Source: Pseudomonas putida (GTDB lineage Bacteria; Pseudomonadota; Gammaproteobacteria; Pseudomonadales; Pseudomonadaceae). Taken from it: 64,000 nucleotides of DNA. Where the stretch lies: positions 3,472,501-3,536,500 of the forward strand of contig CP124529.1 in NCBI GenBank assembly GCA_029953615.1, read 5' to 3'. The notes beneath the pieces are model-generated. The model did no database searches. It was not told the DNA's origin and saw only the letters and a list, made by a program, of their open reading frames with translations. Made by a program: the position numbers and the translations under genes. The first letter of the stretch is position 1, and each line of letters starts with the position of its first letter. Positions 24,023-62,197 of the stretch are shown here, in pieces.

Positions 24023-24988
24023 ATGGGTGGCAGGCAACAGCAGGGCGCGGCCCTGCTGATGGTGATGGTGGTGCTGGCGATGCTGGCGGCGGGCATGGCC
24101 TGGCTGGTGGAAGACGGCCGGCGCCAGGTCGATGATGTGCGCCTGTTGCACCAGCGGGTTCAGGCGCGAGCGATGGAGCAGGCAGGCCTGGCCTATGCCG
24201 AACAGGCCCTGCGTGACCCCAGCTGGCGGCTTAGCCCGCTGTTCTGGCAGGCCTTGCGCGGGCAGCCTCTGAGCTACGATTTTGGCGCTGGTCAGGCGCA
24301 GTTGCGGGTGCGCGACCAGCACACCTGTTTCAACGTCAATGCGCTGCTCGGCGCTGACGGCGAGCGTGCTGAGCGCCAGTTGCGTTACCTGCTGGGTGAC
24401 GACATGGCTGCCGAGCGGCTGGTCGATGCCTTGGCCGACTGGCTCGACGCCGACAGCGATGCCCGCCTGCAAGGTGCCGAAAGTGCCCAGTACCTGCGCC
24501 AGCAGCCACCACGGTTGGCGGCCAACCAGCCGATGCTCGATACCAGCGAACTAAACCTGTTGCTGGAGCAGGATGCCAGCCGCCAGGCACGCTACCCGAT
24601 GCTGTGTGCGTTGCCGCAGACCACTGGCTGGCGGCTGAATGCAAATGCCCTGGGACTGGAGCACCTGCCGCTGCTGGAGGCGCTGTACGAAGGGCGTTAC
24701 CCACGCTCGTTGCTCAGCCGTATCATCAGCGGCCGGCCGGCGTCGGGGTATTTGGATGCGGCCGCTCTGCGCCAGGCGCTGGGAGCGGTGGATGACGAAA
24801 CCTTCGAACGGCTGAGCGAAGGGCTGCTACTGAACAGCGGGTATTTCCTGTTGCAGTTGTCGTTCGCGGAGGAGGGGCGGGTGATACGCAGCGAGTTCCA
24901 GGTGGAAGCGCTGGGGGTGGTGCAATGGCATGCCCGGGTGCCGGCGCAGCAGGTGCGGGTGCGGAGTCGGGAGCCGATGGTGTGGTAG
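24023..24988 (+). CDS. xcpX: Type II secretion minor pseudopilin GspK (XcpX)
   Basis: The tip pseudopilin of the type II secretion system, working with GspI and GspJ. In 321 residues, a short prepilin leader MGGRQQQG precedes the hydrophobic helix AALLMVMVVLAMLAAGMAWL; the family lacks the usual Glu5, and Met stands there. The large globular domain follows, with the NVNALLGADGE and calcium-site-like regions. GGAGG lies 9 bases before the ATG. It is unusual in being separated from the rest of the xcp genes by uxpB and transcribed from its own divergent promoter region. It ends convergently with uxpB across a REP doublet. Confidence 0.93.
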   Translation: MGGRQQQGAALLMVMVVLAMLAAGMAWLVEDGRRQVDDVRLLHQRVQARAMEQAGLAYAEQALRDPSWRLSPLFWQALRGQPLSYDFGAGQAQLRVRDQHTCFNVNALLGADGERAERQLRYLLGDDMAAERLVDALADWLDADSDARLQGAESAQYLRQQPPRLAANQPMLDTSELNLLLEQDASRQARYPMLCALPQTTGWRLNANALGLEHLPLLEALYEGRYPRSLLSRIISGRPASGYLDAAALRQALGAVDDETFERLSEGLLLNSGYFLLQLSFAEEGRVIRSEFQVEALGVVQWHARVPAQQVRVRSREPMVW

Positions 24989-25136: not shown

Positions 25137-27198
25137 TCAGACGGTGCCAATCTCCCCGCCATCAATCCGCTGGATCACTACCGTCGCAGCCCGGGGTCTT
25201 ACCGTGGTGCCTGCCGGAGTGGCATCGGTAGCTTTGTCGGTATACGGCCAGTTGTCCGGGTGCTGGATGTTGACGAACAGTGTCTTGTTGTCGGGGGTGA
25301 AGGTAATCCCGGTCACCTCGCAGCCATTCGGCCCGACGAAGAAGCGTCGCAGGTCCACCTGGTTCTGGGCATTCACCGGCACCTGCTTGCCGCTGGCATC
25401 CACCAGATTGGTGGGGATCACTGCCAGCAGCTGGTCGTTGGTGTAGTCGGTCACGCTGCTCTCGCCGTTGTCAGTCTCGAACCACAGCACGCCACGGCTA
25501 TCGAAGCTCATGCCGTCGGGGCTTGCGAACTGGTTCAGTTCGGTCAGGCCGGAGCGGTTGATGTCGGCGGTGCCGGCCGCATTGGCGCCGAACACGAAGA
25601 TGTCCCAGGTGAAGCTCAACTGGTCGTCGCTGTCGTGCCAGCGGATGATGTGGCCGTGACGGTTCGGGCCGCGCGGGTTGGCTGCGTCGACCTTTTCCGG
25701 GGTGCGCGCGCTGTTGTTGGTCAGGGTCAGGTAGACGTCGCCGTTGAGCGGGTTGACCGTGGTCCATTCCGGGCGGTCCATCGGCGTCGCGCCCACGGCA
25801 TCGGCAGCACCACGGGTGTTGAGGATGATGCCCGGCAGGTCGCCATACAATGCGCCCAGGGTGCTGCCGCCAGTGGTGGCGGTGGCCACGTCCAGCAGTA
25901 GCCATACACCAGTGCCGTCGGCATTGAAGCGGGCCACGTACAGCTTGCCCTGGTCGAGGTACTTGGCACCGGTGGCCAGGCGGTCGGCCGGGTTGGCGTC
26001 GGCGGCGTCCCACACGGCGGTGGACACCCACTTGTACAGGTACTCGTTATTCGAGTCGTCACCCATGTACCACACCAGCGGCTTGCCGGCGACGGGCAGG
26101 CCTGGGGCGCAGCCTTCGTGGCGGAAACGGCCCAGCGCGGTGCGCTTGGTGGCCAGGGTGTTGCTGTTGTACGGGTCGATTTCGACGATGTAGCCGTAGG
26201 TGCTGGCTTCGTTGCGGTAGTCGTCGGTGGCGCTGGCGCCTTTGACGGTGACGTCGAAACGGGCGAACTCGTCGGCCACTTCGCTGCTGTCACCGGCTGC
26301 GGTTTCCCACTTGTACTGGCCGCTGGAGGTGCCCACGCCGATACGGCGCTGGTCTTCGGGGCGGGTGCCCTTGTTGACGAAGATGCCTGGCCAGTTCTCT
26401 TCACAGGTCAGGTAGGTGCCCCACGGGGTGTAGCCGTTGCCGCAGTTGTTGTTGGTGCCACGGCAGTGGGTGCCGGCGGTGGAGTACTTGGTCTTGACGT
26501 GGGTCGGTACCCCGCAGCGGGCCGGTGATTTCCATGCGCGAGGCGGTAGTGAAGCGGCGGTTGAGCGGGTCGTTGTCGACCACCTGCCAGCGGCCACCGA
26601 TTTTCTGCAGGCGCACCACGCCGGCGCCGTGGGCGTTGATTTCCTTGCGCACTTCCTCGACCGGGCGCTTGCCGTTGACATCGGTGGTCGGGCCGGCCGG
26701 GTGCAGGGCGGCGGTGTCGATGTACTCGAAGTTGATCGCCAGCAGGCCGTCTTCGGAGCTGCCGTTGATGGGGAAGAAGTGCATGCCGTCATGGTGCATG
26801 CCCATGGCGTTGGCCTGGTCGGTCGAGGTGTTGCTGCCGTCGGACTTCCACGGGTTGCCGTTGCTGTTGATCGGCGTGCCCCAAGGCGCCAGCACATAGG
26901 CGCTGTAGCCGGCGGCAACTACGCAGGCGTCGGTGCGCGAGCCGGGGATGGACTGGAAGCCCAGTGCCAGTTTCGGCACTTCCGGTTCAGTCACGGGCGG
27001 CTCGGTGACCGGATCATCGTGATCGGAACCACCACCGTCGAAGCAGCCTGTCAGGCCGGTACCGGCAATCATGGCGATGGCGGCGCCCAGGCTGCCGCGT
27101 ATCACGCTGCGGCGGCTCAGGTAGGCGTCCATGACGTTGGCCATCGGCAGGTTGCCGCTTTGGTTCCGGTCCAGGTTGTCGCCGGTATCTCGACTCAT
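25137..27198 (-). pseudogene. uxpB: PhoX family phosphatase (UxpB type), frameshifted
   Basis: PhoX enzymes are Ca/Fe-dependent alkaline phosphatases that release phosphate from organic esters. The N-terminus has a Tat motif SRRSVIRG (28-35) and lipobox LTGC with Cys52, as in P. putida UxpB, a Tat-exported lipoprotein moved outward by Xcp. The body holds CEENWPGIFVNKG, the RFRHEGCAPG region, and PDGMSFDSRGVLWFETDNGES near the C-terminus. The frame breaks after MEITGPLRGTD; removing one G of the GGG run 26501-26503 (plus strand) joins ...RGTD to HVKTKYSTAGTH and gives 686 residues. AAGGA lies 7 bases before the ATG at 27198. One extra base in a run suggests sequence error. Confidence 0.88.
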
Positions 27199-34362: not shown

Positions 34363-34794
34363 GTGCGCTGTCAGCGGGGCTTCAGCCTGATCGAGCTGCT
34401 GGTGGTGCTGGCCATTGCCGGGCTGATGACCGGGCTGGCGGTGGCCGGGTTGGGCAACGGCCAGGCCGGCGTCGACCAGGCCCTGCAGCGGCTGGCGGCA
34501 GAGACCCGTGGCCAGGCCGCACTGGCCCGGCATGCTGGGCAATTGCGCGGGCTGCGCTGGAATGGCCAGCGCCCGGAGTTTGTGCGCCGCGAGGGCGATG
34601 GCTGGGTAACCGAAGCGGTCGCGCTTGGCGACTGGCCCAAGGGCTTGCACCCGGACTGGCCAGCCAGCCCGCAGCCGCGCCTGTTGTTCACGCCGCATGG
34701 CTGGGCACAGCCGGGCAATGTGCGCTGGCGCTGGGGCGATGGCAGCCAGCAATGGGCGTGGGACCGTGATGGCCGCTTGCAGGTGGCGCCATGA
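34363..34794 (+). CDS. xcpU: Type II secretion minor pseudopilin GspH (XcpU)
   Basis: A 143-residue precursor starting at GTG 34363. The very short leader MRCQRG precedes FSLIELLVVLAIAGLMTGLA with Glu5 intact; the C-terminal beta domain contains the RxxWxxxRPEFV-like segment LRWNGQRPEFVRR and ends with a Trp-rich stretch. Its stop overlaps the xcpV ATG (ATGA). Confidence 0.92.
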   Translation: MRCQRGFSLIELLVVLAIAGLMTGLAVAGLGNGQAGVDQALQRLAAETRGQAALARHAGQLRGLRWNGQRPEFVRREGDGWVTEAVALGDWPKGLHPDWPASPQPRLLFTPHGWAQPGNVRWRWGDGSQQWAWDRDGRLQVAP

Positions 34795-35159
34795 AGCAGG
34801 GGCAGCGGGGTTTCACCTTGCTGGAAGTGACCGTGGCACTGGCGATTGCCGCTGTTCTGGCGGTTATCACCAGCCAGGTCCTGCGCCAGCGCTTGGCGGT
34901 GCAGCACAACCTGCAACAGCACCGCCTTGGCCTGCTGTGCGCTCGCGAACTGCAAACCCGCTTCGCCGTCGAGCAGTACTGGCCTGCCGAAAACCAGGTG
35001 GACGGTGAGCTGAGCCAGGGCGGCCAGCGCTGCCATTGGCAATTGCAGTTGCGCCGCACAGGTGTGCGCGACCTGCGCCGTGGCGAACTGCGACTGTTCG
35101 CCGACCGCGACCAGCGCCTGCCGCTAGGCCAGTACACCGTATTCCTGGAGCGCCCATGA
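34791..35159 (+). CDS. xcpV: Type II secretion minor pseudopilin GspI (XcpV)
   Basis: A 122-residue precursor with leader MKQGQRG and mature start FTLLEVTVALAIAAVLAVIT (Glu5 present). GspI nucleates the GspI-J-K tip complex. It overlaps xcpU by 4 bases. Its stop originally overlapped an ATG that now belongs to a broken first copy of the xcpW start (see the repeat at 35144). Confidence 0.92.
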   Translation: MKQGQRGFTLLEVTVALAIAAVLAVITSQVLRQRLAVQHNLQQHRLGLLCARELQTRFAVEQYWPAENQVDGELSQGGQRCHWQLQLRRTGVRDLRRGELRLFADRDQRLPLGQYTVFLERP

Positions 35160-35531
35160 GTTACAGAAATCGTGAAGCTTGTGCCGTCCCTGTGGGAGCG
35201 GGCATGCCCGCGAAGCAGGCGACTCGTTGGATGGCACCGGCTTCGCCGGTGTTCGCGGGCGCGCCCGCTCCCACAGGGAGGGCGTATACCCGCCAGCCCG
35301 GTATCCTGCCCACGAAACAGCGCCAGGCCGGCCTGCCCCTGGAGCGGTCATGAGTTACAGAGATCGTGATGCTTGCGCGGTCTCTGTGGGAGCGGGCATG
35401 CCCGCGAAGCAGGCGACTCGGTGTATGGCACCGGCTTCGCCGGTGTTCGCGGGCGCGCCCGCTCCCACAAAGAGGGCGCATACCCGTCAGCTCTGGACCC
35501 AGCCCAGCAAACACCGCCAGGCCGGCCTCAC
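35144..35531 (+). repeat. 194-bp tandem duplication carrying a REP doublet
   Basis: Two units with exact 194-bp period (CCTGGAGCG at 35144 and 35338; ATGAGTTACAG at 35156 and 35350; TGTGGGAGCGGGCATGCCCG at 35191 and 35385). Each unit contains the end-of-xcpV ribosome site, an ATG, an inverted REP pair with a central GGCACCGGCTTCGCCGGTG hairpin, and the start of the xcpW pilin helix region. The copies differ at a modest number of positions, so the duplication is not brand new. Confidence 0.88.
35156..35353 (+). pseudogene. Truncated first copy of xcpW 5' end (65 aa)
   Basis: Starts at the ATG overlapping the xcpV stop and reads MSYRNREACAVPVGAG through translated REP sequence to KQRQAGLPLERS, then stops. 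It is the first unit of the tandem duplication: the text matches the second unit up to the prepilin cleavage region, where the recombination joint (ACCCTG joined to CTGGAGCG) cuts off the pilin helix. It overlaps the real xcpW start (ATGA), so it may still be translated and coupled to it. Confidence 0.7.
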
Positions 35532-36096
35532 CCTGATCGAGTTGATGGTTGCCCTGGCCCTGACCGCCATCCTCGGCATCCTGCTCGCCGCCCTGGTCAA
35601 CGGCTGGCTCAAGGTCCGCGAACGCCTGCAAGTCACCACCCAGCAAACCTCGGTACTGGACTTCTGCCTGGCCCTGGAGCGCCGCTTCGACAGCCCGGTG
35701 CTGCGCCGCGTCTACGACCAGCGCCTGCCGCTGGCCAGCCGCTGGCTGGACTGGCAACCCGCCAGCAACCAGTTGCAGTGGGTCGCCAGCACCGGCCTGC
35801 CGGAGGCTGAGGGCGGTTCGCGCCTGCAACGCCAGCGCCTGCGCTTCGAGGCCCGCGAGCAGCGCCTGCTGCTGGAAAGCTCGGCCGACCTGTACGCCGC
35901 CGCCGCTCCACGCTGGGTCCAGCGCGAGCGGCTCGACCGGGTCAGTGCCATGAATGTTCTGTATTACCAGGGCGGCCGCTGGCTGGCCTGGCCTTCCGAC
36001 CAACCGGCGCACCCCGGCCGTGGCGTGCGTCTGGAACTGCAGCGTGACGGAGCACCCTATGTTTGCACCTTCGCCCTCCCGTGGGGGCGCTCATGA
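35350..36096 (+). CDS. xcpW: Type II secretion minor pseudopilin GspJ (XcpW) with REP-derived leader
   Basis: A tip-complex pseudopilin. From ATG 35350 (GGAG 5 bases upstream) the 248-residue product has a 59-residue leader, MSYRDRDACAVSVGAG... to KHRQAG, before LTLIELMVALALTAILGILL. Most of that leader is REP DNA read in frame. Normal GspJ leaders are under ~15 residues. No ATG, GTG or TTG lies close to the cleavage site in frame, so a shorter standard leader cannot be made here except from GTG or ATG codons within the REP. The mature domain (VLDFCLALERRFDSPVLRRV... to CTFALPWGRS) is complete. It overlaps xcpY (ATGA). Confidence 0.85.
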   Translation: MSYRDRDACAVSVGAGMPAKQATRCMAPASPVFAGAPAPTKRAHTRQLWTQPSKHRQAGLTLIELMVALALTAILGILLAALVNGWLKVRERLQVTTQQTSVLDFCLALERRFDSPVLRRVYDQRLPLASRWLDWQPASNQLQWVASTGLPEAEGGSRLQRQRLRFEAREQRLLLESSADLYAAAAPRWVQRERLDRVSAMNVLYYQGGRWLAWPSDQPAHPGRGVRLELQRDGAPYVCTFALPWGRS

Positions 36097-37169: not shown

Positions 37170-37552
37170 ACCTCGATTGGCTACAGCGTCATCGCCTGAT
37201 GTTCGCTTGGGCACTGATTGCCCTGTTGCTGGGCTTCCTGGCCCTGCGTACAGGCATTGCTCAGTGGCGTGAGCTAAGCCAGTGGCGCGGGCTGGCCGAA
37301 CAGGCCGCCAGCCTGCAAGGCGGCCCGGGGTTGAACCTGGAGCGGCTACGCCAGTCGGCCCAGGCGCGACAGATTGAACTGGCCGAGGTCGATGCGCAGG
37401 GCAAGGTCTGGCAGTTGCATGGGCAGGTGGCCGACGAGCGAGTGCTGCAAGGCTGGTTGCAAAGCCTGCGTGCAGAAGGTGCACAGCTATTGCAATGGGG
37501 GCTGGAGCAGGATGGCAAGGGCCTGCGCTTCAACCTGGTGATGCAGCCATGA
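37166..37552 (+). CDS. xcpZ: Type II secretion inner-membrane protein GspM (XcpZ)
   Basis: A 128-residue bitopic protein: short cytoplasmic N-terminus MNLDWLQRHR, one membrane helix (LMFAWALIALLLGFLALRTG), and a small periplasmic ferredoxin-like domain. It partners GspL. ATG 37166 overlaps the xcpY stop by 4 bases, and its own stop overlaps gspN. Confidence 0.88.
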   Translation: MNLDWLQRHRLMFAWALIALLLGFLALRTGIAQWRELSQWRGLAEQAASLQGGPGLNLERLRQSAQARQIELAEVDAQGKVWQLHGQVADERVLQGWLQSLRAEGAQLLQWGLEQDGKGLRFNLVMQP

Positions 37553-38208
37553 GCCGCAAGGGCATGGCGTGGGTTGTGTTGGTGTTCGTGGTGTCGGTAT
37601 TGGTTGAGCTTCCGGCCAATTGGGTGGTGCGTGCGTTCGGCCTGCCAATGCGGGACGCCAGTGGCAGCCTGTGGCAAGGCCAGGCTCGACAGTTGGGCCC
37701 GGTCGGGCCTTTGCACTGGACGGTGCAGCCTTGGCGCTTGCAGGCGAACGCCCAGCTGGGCTTCCAGGGCCAGGCCTGGCAGTTGCGTGCCGAAGGCTGG
37801 CCTTGGCGCTGGCGGGCTGAGGCATCAGCGGTAGGCGCCCAGACGACAGCGCTGAGCGATTACCGTCTTGCGGGTCAGTGGCAGGGGACATTGCGGCTTC
37901 AGGGGGCTGGGCGCCAATGCCACGCCAGCGAAGGCCGCGTCACGGTGACCGACCTTGCCCTGAGCGAACCATGGTCACTGGGGTTGGGGCATGGCTGGCT
38001 GGAGTTGGACTGCCGCGGCGGCTGGCGCTTGCGAGGGCAGTTGGCACAGCAGCGGCAGCATCAGGTGGCAGTGGATGCTGATTTGCTCGCACGACGGGCG
38101 CAGGTAGTGTTTGAGTTGCAGCCTGAGGCGGAGTTGACGCCTTTGCTGCGCGGCGCACAGTGGCTTGGGCCGCAGGCTTTAACAGGGCGACGGGAGCTGC
38201 GCTGGTAG
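37549..38208 (+). CDS. gspN: Type II secretion protein GspN
   Basis: A 219-residue protein with an N-terminal membrane anchor (GMAWVVLVFVVSVLVELPANWVV) and a periplasmic beta-rich domain with the GSLWQGQARQL segment (GTLWxG-type) characteristic of GspN. GspN is present in only some type II systems and is often dispensable. It is the last gene of the operon; no prepilin peptidase gene (xcpA/pilD) follows, so that function must lie elsewhere. A large hairpin with a T-tract lies 53 bases downstream. Confidence 0.85.
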   Translation: MSRKGMAWVVLVFVVSVLVELPANWVVRAFGLPMRDASGSLWQGQARQLGPVGPLHWTVQPWRLQANAQLGFQGQAWQLRAEGWPWRWRAEASAVGAQTTALSDYRLAGQWQGTLRLQGAGRQCHASEGRVTVTDLALSEPWSLGLGHGWLELDCRGGWRLRGQLAQQRQHQVAVDADLLARRAQVVFELQPEAELTPLLRGAQWLGPQALTGRRELRW

Positions 38209-61844: not shown

Positions 61845-62197
61845 TGTGGGAGCGGGTTCATCGAGGCGTCGAACCGCCGCGAACACCGGCGAAGCCGGTG
61901 CCATGCACCGCGTCGCCTGCTTCGCGGGTAAACCCGCTCCCACAGGGCCTGCGGCGGGCTTGAGACTTGCGCTGTACCTGTGGGAGCTGGCTTGCCGGCG
62001 ATCACCGGCGAAGCCGGTGCCATCCACCGAGTCGCTGCTTCGCGGGCATGCCCGCTCCCACAGGGCCTGCACCGGGCTCAAGGCTTGCGCTGTACCTGTG
62101 GGAGCGGGTTCATCGAGGCGTCGAACCGCCGCGAACACCGGCGAAGCCGGTGCCATGCACCAAGTCGCATTCTTCGCGGGTAAACCCGCTCCCACAA
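61845..62197. repeat. Array of three composite REP units
   Basis: Three direct-order units beginning TGTGGGAG at 61845, 61979 and 62097. Each holds two REP arms around a GGCGAAGCCGGTGCCAT hairpin. Units 1 and 3 have an expanded left arm (GCGGGTTCATCGAGGCGTCG, then AACCGCCGCGAA); unit 2 has the GCTGGCTTGCCGGCGA arm paired with a GCGGGCATGCCCGC arm, so it is a hybrid. Spacers share GGCTTGAGACTTGCGCTGTACC-like sequence. With flanks this accounts for the gap 61804-62253. Confidence 0.88.

Follow-up and report, generated by a model that had tools for sequence, protein, structure and literature searches.

The window, a 64,000-nucleotide stretch of the single-contig, 5.76-Mb Pseudomonas putida genome, contains a type II secretion operon in which a Pfam scan places D (from 29538), E, F, G, H, I (34791-35159), J (35350-36096) and L (from 36093). 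The products of gspD to gspI and of gspL match their Pfam families, and a ninth protein scanned (37495-38208) has no match. The xcpV (gspI) product scores 39.7 bits against the NCBIfam gspI model, just below the cut-off of 44.35. The xcpW product aligns with most of the length of TIGR01711 (gspJ) at 26.8 bits (cut-off 64.85). The gene lies between gspI and gspL, and several homologues carry PF11612. The protein has a class III signal, with a Gly, a hydrophobic helix, a Glu at +5 (QAG-LTLIE) and an N_methyl domain, and the genome has three matches to Peptidase_A24, the prepilin peptidase family. In 2013, Putker and colleagues reportedly found the P. putida Xcp system to be active, with secretion of phosphatases.

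An absence of gspK is not supported, as a T2SSK match over the cut-off lies at 24635-24793, within a possible gene at 24023-24988. This gene is well upstream of gspD, not between gspJ and gspL, and the family match is weak in specificity (the same model matches in 8 of 14 control genomes), so it is a candidate only. A gene on the minus strand at 25137-27198, which by eye we take to be PhoX-like, seems to be split between two overlapping frames (26401-27198 and 25137-26918), perhaps due to a frameshift.

The features at the junction of xcpV and xcpW are as follows (window coordinates; SD, Shine-Dalgarno sequence).

34791..35159, plus strand: xcpV (gspI), Pfam T2SSI and N_methyl; its 3′ end bears the SD and start of xcpW
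35144..35337, plus strand: tandem unit, copy 1
35147..35150, plus strand: GGAG SD within the last xcpV codons, 5 nt ahead of the overlapping ATG
35156..35353, plus strand: copy-1 open reading frame (ORF) of 65 codons, read directly; runs from the xcpV ATGA overlap into the copy-2 ATGA
35188..35278, plus strand: REP doublet core, copy 1, a genome-wide repeat; about unit positions 33-123
35312..35314, plus strand: ACG at the position of the old short-start ATG, copy 1
35338..35531, plus strand: tandem unit, copy 2, 88% identical to copy 1
35341..35344, plus strand: duplicated GGAG SD, copy 2
35350..36096, plus strand: xcpW (gspJ), 248 codons, with a 59-residue leader
35382..35472, plus strand: REP doublet, copy 2, an in-frame part of the leader
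35506..35508, plus strand: AGC at the position of the old short-start ATG, giving SKHR-QAG in place of MKRR-QAG
35524..35526, plus strand: Gly codon ahead of the predicted prepilin peptidase cut; motif QAG-LTLIE, Pfam N_methyl
35527..36093, plus strand: mature XcpW

Two tandem units of 194 bp lie between xcpV and xcpW and differ at 12% of positions. Each unit contains, in order, the end of xcpV with GGAG, ATGA, about 30 nt, the REP doublet, about 35 nt and the pilin cleavage stub. The arms of the doublet (35183-35214 and 35252-35283) form an inverted pair that is 91% complementary. Searched with one unit, this genome has 117 matches when those on the opposite strand at the same places are counted. 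There are also three matches above the cut-off to the Y1_Tnp family, candidates for a REP-associated transposase. Copy 2 is in frame with the pilin (MSYRD...SKHR-QAG-LTLIE). In copy 1, the TGA of the 65-codon ORF overlaps the copy-2 ATG at 35350. Because it ends there, the ORF could keep translation coupled, and it is likely a coupling mini-ORF. These observations bear out the preliminary description, which was made from this sequence alone. It had proposed a REP doublet captured at the xcpW start, duplication of the start region with a 194-bp period, a first copy ending as a 65-codon ORF that overlaps xcpV and the second copy, and REP DNA read in frame into QAG-LTLIE as a 59-residue leader. 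It also raised collapse or expansion of the assembly at the repeat. Such an artefact is very unlikely given the single contig, the differences between the copies and the other copy numbers (1, 2 or 4) in related loci.

To place the locus among relatives, two same-genus searches of 199 and 398 genomes found matches, of which a few were very weak, in 33 and 61 genomes, the second set including the matches of the first. A scan of named species genomes gave 48 loci. We parsed 93 loci and removed 20 duplicates, leaving 73 non-redundant loci (L numbers). Same-genus matches with no assigned locus (79% identity or less) are outside the parsed set, and the counts are of DNA-level loci only, excluding long-leader proteins from a protein search (P numbers). 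Further sampling via relatives of G323 added a single locus, L105, judged by eye to lack a REP, and no further matching genome.

The two genes have a compact overlap in 54 of the 73 loci (ATGA in 38, GTGA in 14 and TTGA in 2) and an insert at the junction in 19. All 19 insert loci fall within the set of 49 in which the identity of mature XcpW is 76% or higher. Close REP-free kin include P. putida NBRC 14671 (96%) and P. monteilii and P. hunanensis (95%). The REP-free ancestral form that the preliminary description proposed to seek in relatives is supported by the compact loci, close kin L040, L044 and L077 among them. By eye, most inserts are a REP doublet resembling that of this strain, L014, L015, L045 and L058 have short REP-like remnants only, and L050 and L096 contain another type of palindrome. 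L013 and L043 (P. inefficax) have four REP units over 742 bp from xcpV to xcpW, the last two of which could together form a single leader of about 123 residues. The insert is therefore not a lesion of this one strain, contrary to what had been supposed. The opposite expectation, that related strains all share the same long leader, holds insofar as the insert is found across much of the clade, and fails in that the repeats, copy numbers and leaders differ.

The short start, an ATG ahead of the cleavage site, is gone in nine of the 19 insert loci. The codon at its position is AGC in L009 and L042, ACG in L011, L012 and L046, GTG in L013, ACC in L015, CTG in L045 and GTA in L092. All nine have an open long frame, seven from the xcpV ATG itself and two (L009 and L013) from a duplicated copy of it. 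The other ten still have the short ATG (L010, L014, L018, L041, L048, L050, L058, L090, L096 and L099). Read from the xcpV ATG, six of the ten stay in frame and L050, L058, L090 and L096 do not, so that every frame-breaking insert (4/4) is accompanied by a short ATG. Overall, the insert is in frame in 15 of 19 loci, with L009 and L013 counted from their duplicated starts. L090, a tree neighbor of L041 and L092, has 14 extra bases net that break the frame, and it keeps the short ATG. L058 is the reverse case, with CTG as the xcpV-overlap codon and a short ATG with a strong SD (-6.8). Either start can thus be lost, and no insert locus (0/19) has lost both. Full REP doublets are present in seven of the nine start-lost loci, covering three of the five start-loss changes described below; L015 and L045 have remnants only (by eye).

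On a tree of 49 rows built from gspH, I, J and L (2268 columns), a minimum of five changes is required for start loss, as on each of the 500 bootstrap trees examined; one of the five could be a regain in L010. Three start-lost loci have start-kept sisters (L009 with L010, L092 with L041 and L045 with L014), and a five-row start-lost clade adjoins L048 with modest support (87/62). Insert presence requires six changes (five on 4 of 500 bootstrap trees). Most of the clade has similar 5′ flanks when judged by eye, which suggests a single old insertion that was cleanly lost in L077 and L040/L044, with separate events in L050, L018 and L058/L096, although strains may also have recombined. In L018 (80% identity) and protein P0049 the REP is read in a frame other than that of this strain, which points to separate captures, and no single-frame conserved REP peptide is common to the insert loci. 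CCATGA is found behind the insert in eight of the ten start-kept loci (CCAATGA in L014 and L058) and ahead of it in all but L058. CCATGA on both sides looks like a target duplication, although part of the motif is required by both genes.

With the downstream start gone, any use of the gene requires the insert to be coding, and the parallel loss of the old start disfavors simple misannotation. In this group of soil Pseudomonas, the REP leader is most likely translated as a throw-away front end. The alternative is that the REP is a non-coding 5′ spacer, xcpW starting inside it or at a near-cognate codon in the old position, with the long ORF misannotated. Most N-terminal REPs in P. putida have been argued to be probably not coding (PMC3733652). 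In this strain there are in-frame ATG codons inside the REP at -40 (anti-SD energy -6.5) and -31 (-4.8), and the codons at the old position in L013 (GTG) and L045 (CTG) are near-cognate. The old-position codons AGC, ACC and GTA in L009, L042, L015 and L092 are, as far as known, not usable starts. The ATG at -40 is missing in L011, L012, L046, L015 and L045. The only in-frame candidates from the xcpV overlap to the pilin are a GTG (-25) in L015 and a TTG (-6) in L045, each with next to no SD. Moreover, a start within the doublet would still translate part of the REP. We consider the spacer reading unlikely. Given the in-frame starts inside the REP, the translated leader of this strain may start further downstream, still inside REP DNA.

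The SD carried by xcpV has an anti-SD energy of -5.6 in each of the 30 REP-free rows scored and in every insert row except L092 (18 of 19; L092 is at -3.3), and the duplicated copy in this strain is also at -5.6. Random positions in these loci have a mean of -3.0 and 5% reach -7.1, so this SD is good, not exceptional. L013 is an exception in having a weakened SD nearest upstream (-2.1). For the short start, the SD energy is -3.0, -6.8, -3.3 and -4.3 in the out-of-frame loci and -1.5, -2.6, -3.3, -2.4, 0 and -10.2 (L099) in the in-frame loci that keep the short ATG, with no clean split between the groups.

The preliminary description expected strong mRNA hairpins over the start. We did not find this, as the REP core begins about 30 nt downstream of each ATG and the start region is no more paired overall than in REP-free rows. 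From -15 to +12 around the upstream start, the mean unpaired fraction is 0.23-0.62 in the 19 insert rows versus 0.29-0.39 in eight REP-free rows, and no overall occlusion of the start by the mRNA was seen. The SD segment alone is slightly more paired in the start-lost rows (0.15-0.44 unpaired, versus 0.19-0.38 in the same eight).

We think it probable that xcpW kept its start at the original SD-ATGA, that a REP inserted behind it in frame, that the downstream ATG then decayed, and that the REP peptide is removed by prepilin peptidase. In the compact ancestor, the xcpW start would be the NTGA overlap, with its SD inside the final codons of xcpV. A REP, together with a little adjoining DNA, would enter directly behind SD-ATGA, leaving a CCATGA-like sequence on either side. 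Where the insert is in frame, ribosomes would still initiate at the xcpV-coupled site and translate the insert as an extended leader. Behind it, the second ATG, which mostly has a weak SD, would become redundant and be repeatedly lost. Prepilin peptidase would cut the leader after the Gly, and because the predicted cut is there, mature XcpW would be unchanged. In this strain, a later 194-bp tandem duplication would have copied the SD, start, REP and stub. We infer the order of these events, start use, coupling and leader cleavage from the sequences.

Mature XcpW is under purifying selection in the start-lost lines, where the median pairwise dN/dS is 0.099 (36 pairs), compared with 0.128 in start-kept (45 pairs) and 0.183 in REP-free rows (413 pairs), groups that differ in divergence. 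The mature part, 192 codons, is stop-free in all 19 insert rows. It had been suggested that the leader could alter or abolish XcpW production. The unusual length of the leader and the position of the start beside a repeat speak for xcpW being silenced or a pseudogene in start-lost strains. The low dN/dS, the stop-free mature codons and the Pfam matches of this strain's gspD to gspI and gspL make this very improbable, and the suggestion is unsupported.

The leader evolves differently. In seven rows of equal leader length (six start-lost rows and L041), its mean dN is 0.196 and its dS 0.312, a ratio of 0.63, and the variable sites by codon position number 18/22/28 in the leader and 18/10/85 in the mature domain. 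On these values the letters of the leader appear nearly free while its frame is held, and a strongly selected leader peptide is not supported. A related possibility is that the REP leader has been exapted, an RNA hairpin or peptide tuning XcpW dose relative to the other pseudopilins and being kept by selection. The inserts recur or persist across the clade, and six of the ten start-kept loci have them in frame. The near-neutral leader, its varying sequence among lines, the different REP frame in L018 and P0049 and the close kin that live without a leader make exaptation quite unlikely. A tentative extension of the throw-away leader, which we see as possible rather than probable, is that a cleavable prepilin leader is a sheltered landing site in which a mobile palindrome can turn coding at no cost. 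In-frame insertion behind the coupled start would make the old start redundant, repeated start loss would then lock the REP as coding (a neutral ratchet), and the leader may now set XcpW dose.

All 19 insert loci have G-LTLIE, and all nine start-lost loci retain the basic stub [KR][HR]R. The highest 19-residue hydropathy mean in the long leaders is 1.19, so there is no transmembrane-like segment. Prepilin leaders are described as variable in length and facing the cytoplasm (PMC10191384), and one review gives a span of 6-51 residues (PMC6916266). The leader here (59 residues) is longer than the range in that review, and those in the start-lost loci are 40-123 residues with the chosen starts, with possible lengths of 114 residues in L042 and 123 in L013. 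These natural variants, of about 40 to 123 residues, make the leader-length tolerance of prepilin processing testable. P0051, a 212-amino acid homologue, has 20 residues before QAG, no REP and a Thr replacing the short-start Met; it is perhaps a remnant of REP capture.

Several known systems resemble this one in part. Rickettsia palindromic elements are palindromic mobile repeats that lie in frame within protein genes (PMC10969869). The xcpW case is likewise an in-frame palindromic mobile repeat within a conserved protein gene, and differs in that it involves a Pseudomonas REP doublet, uses more than one frame, is in a part predicted to be cut off and has lost the old start in parallel. In P. 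putida, GTAG REPs are reported at intragenic and N-terminal positions, most of the N-terminal ones being judged probably not coding (PMC3733652). These share the repeat type, N-terminal position and host group with the xcpW case, in which, unlike them, the downstream start has gone. REPINs, REP doublets associated with RAYT transposases, predominantly occupy extragenic space (PMC3116915). The xcpW doublet is similarly inverted, with many genomic copies and Y1-transposase matches in the genome, and in contrast is inside the long gene frame on which xcpW seems to depend. Geobacter PilA has long and short prepilins, both of which are made (PMC6904877). There, as here, one pilin has a long and a short leader; in xcpW, the short start has disappeared from nine loci, and a mobile repeat makes up the extra leader.

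In-frame palindromic repeats are thus already known, and the parallel loss of the old start is new as far as we could search. None of the openly accessible papers listed for this subject appears from its listing to concern a REP in xcpW. Comparison with shorter homologues has been the basis for arguing over whether REPs that front Pseudomonas genes are coding or a matter of misannotation (PMC3733652). Repeated loss of the downstream start in separate lineages is a natural test, and it favors a coding REP. The case is unusual and well supported as one in which a mobile repeat became coding within an expendable portion of a conserved protein, its expression and processing being predicted. A mobile repeat may therefore become fixed in a conserved machine via the part that is thrown away.

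We also looked for other captured REPs in this genome, in 40 chosen stretches around REP matches plus the window stretch, which gave 46 scored doublets. Between 39 and 46 of the 46 are stop-free per frame in all six frames. REP doublets being almost stop-free in every frame, an in-frame landing would nearly always be readable. Three doublets besides xcpW pass a simple coding-score cut (L152, L141 and L146), and reading of L152 and L141 revealed an ordinary ATG with an SD behind the REP. The plasmid collection gave no match. About 13 REP doublets are clustered in a 1.5-kb stretch (G000:C1:5450649-5452172), and within the window there is another REP array, with a 118-bp period, at 61879-62105.
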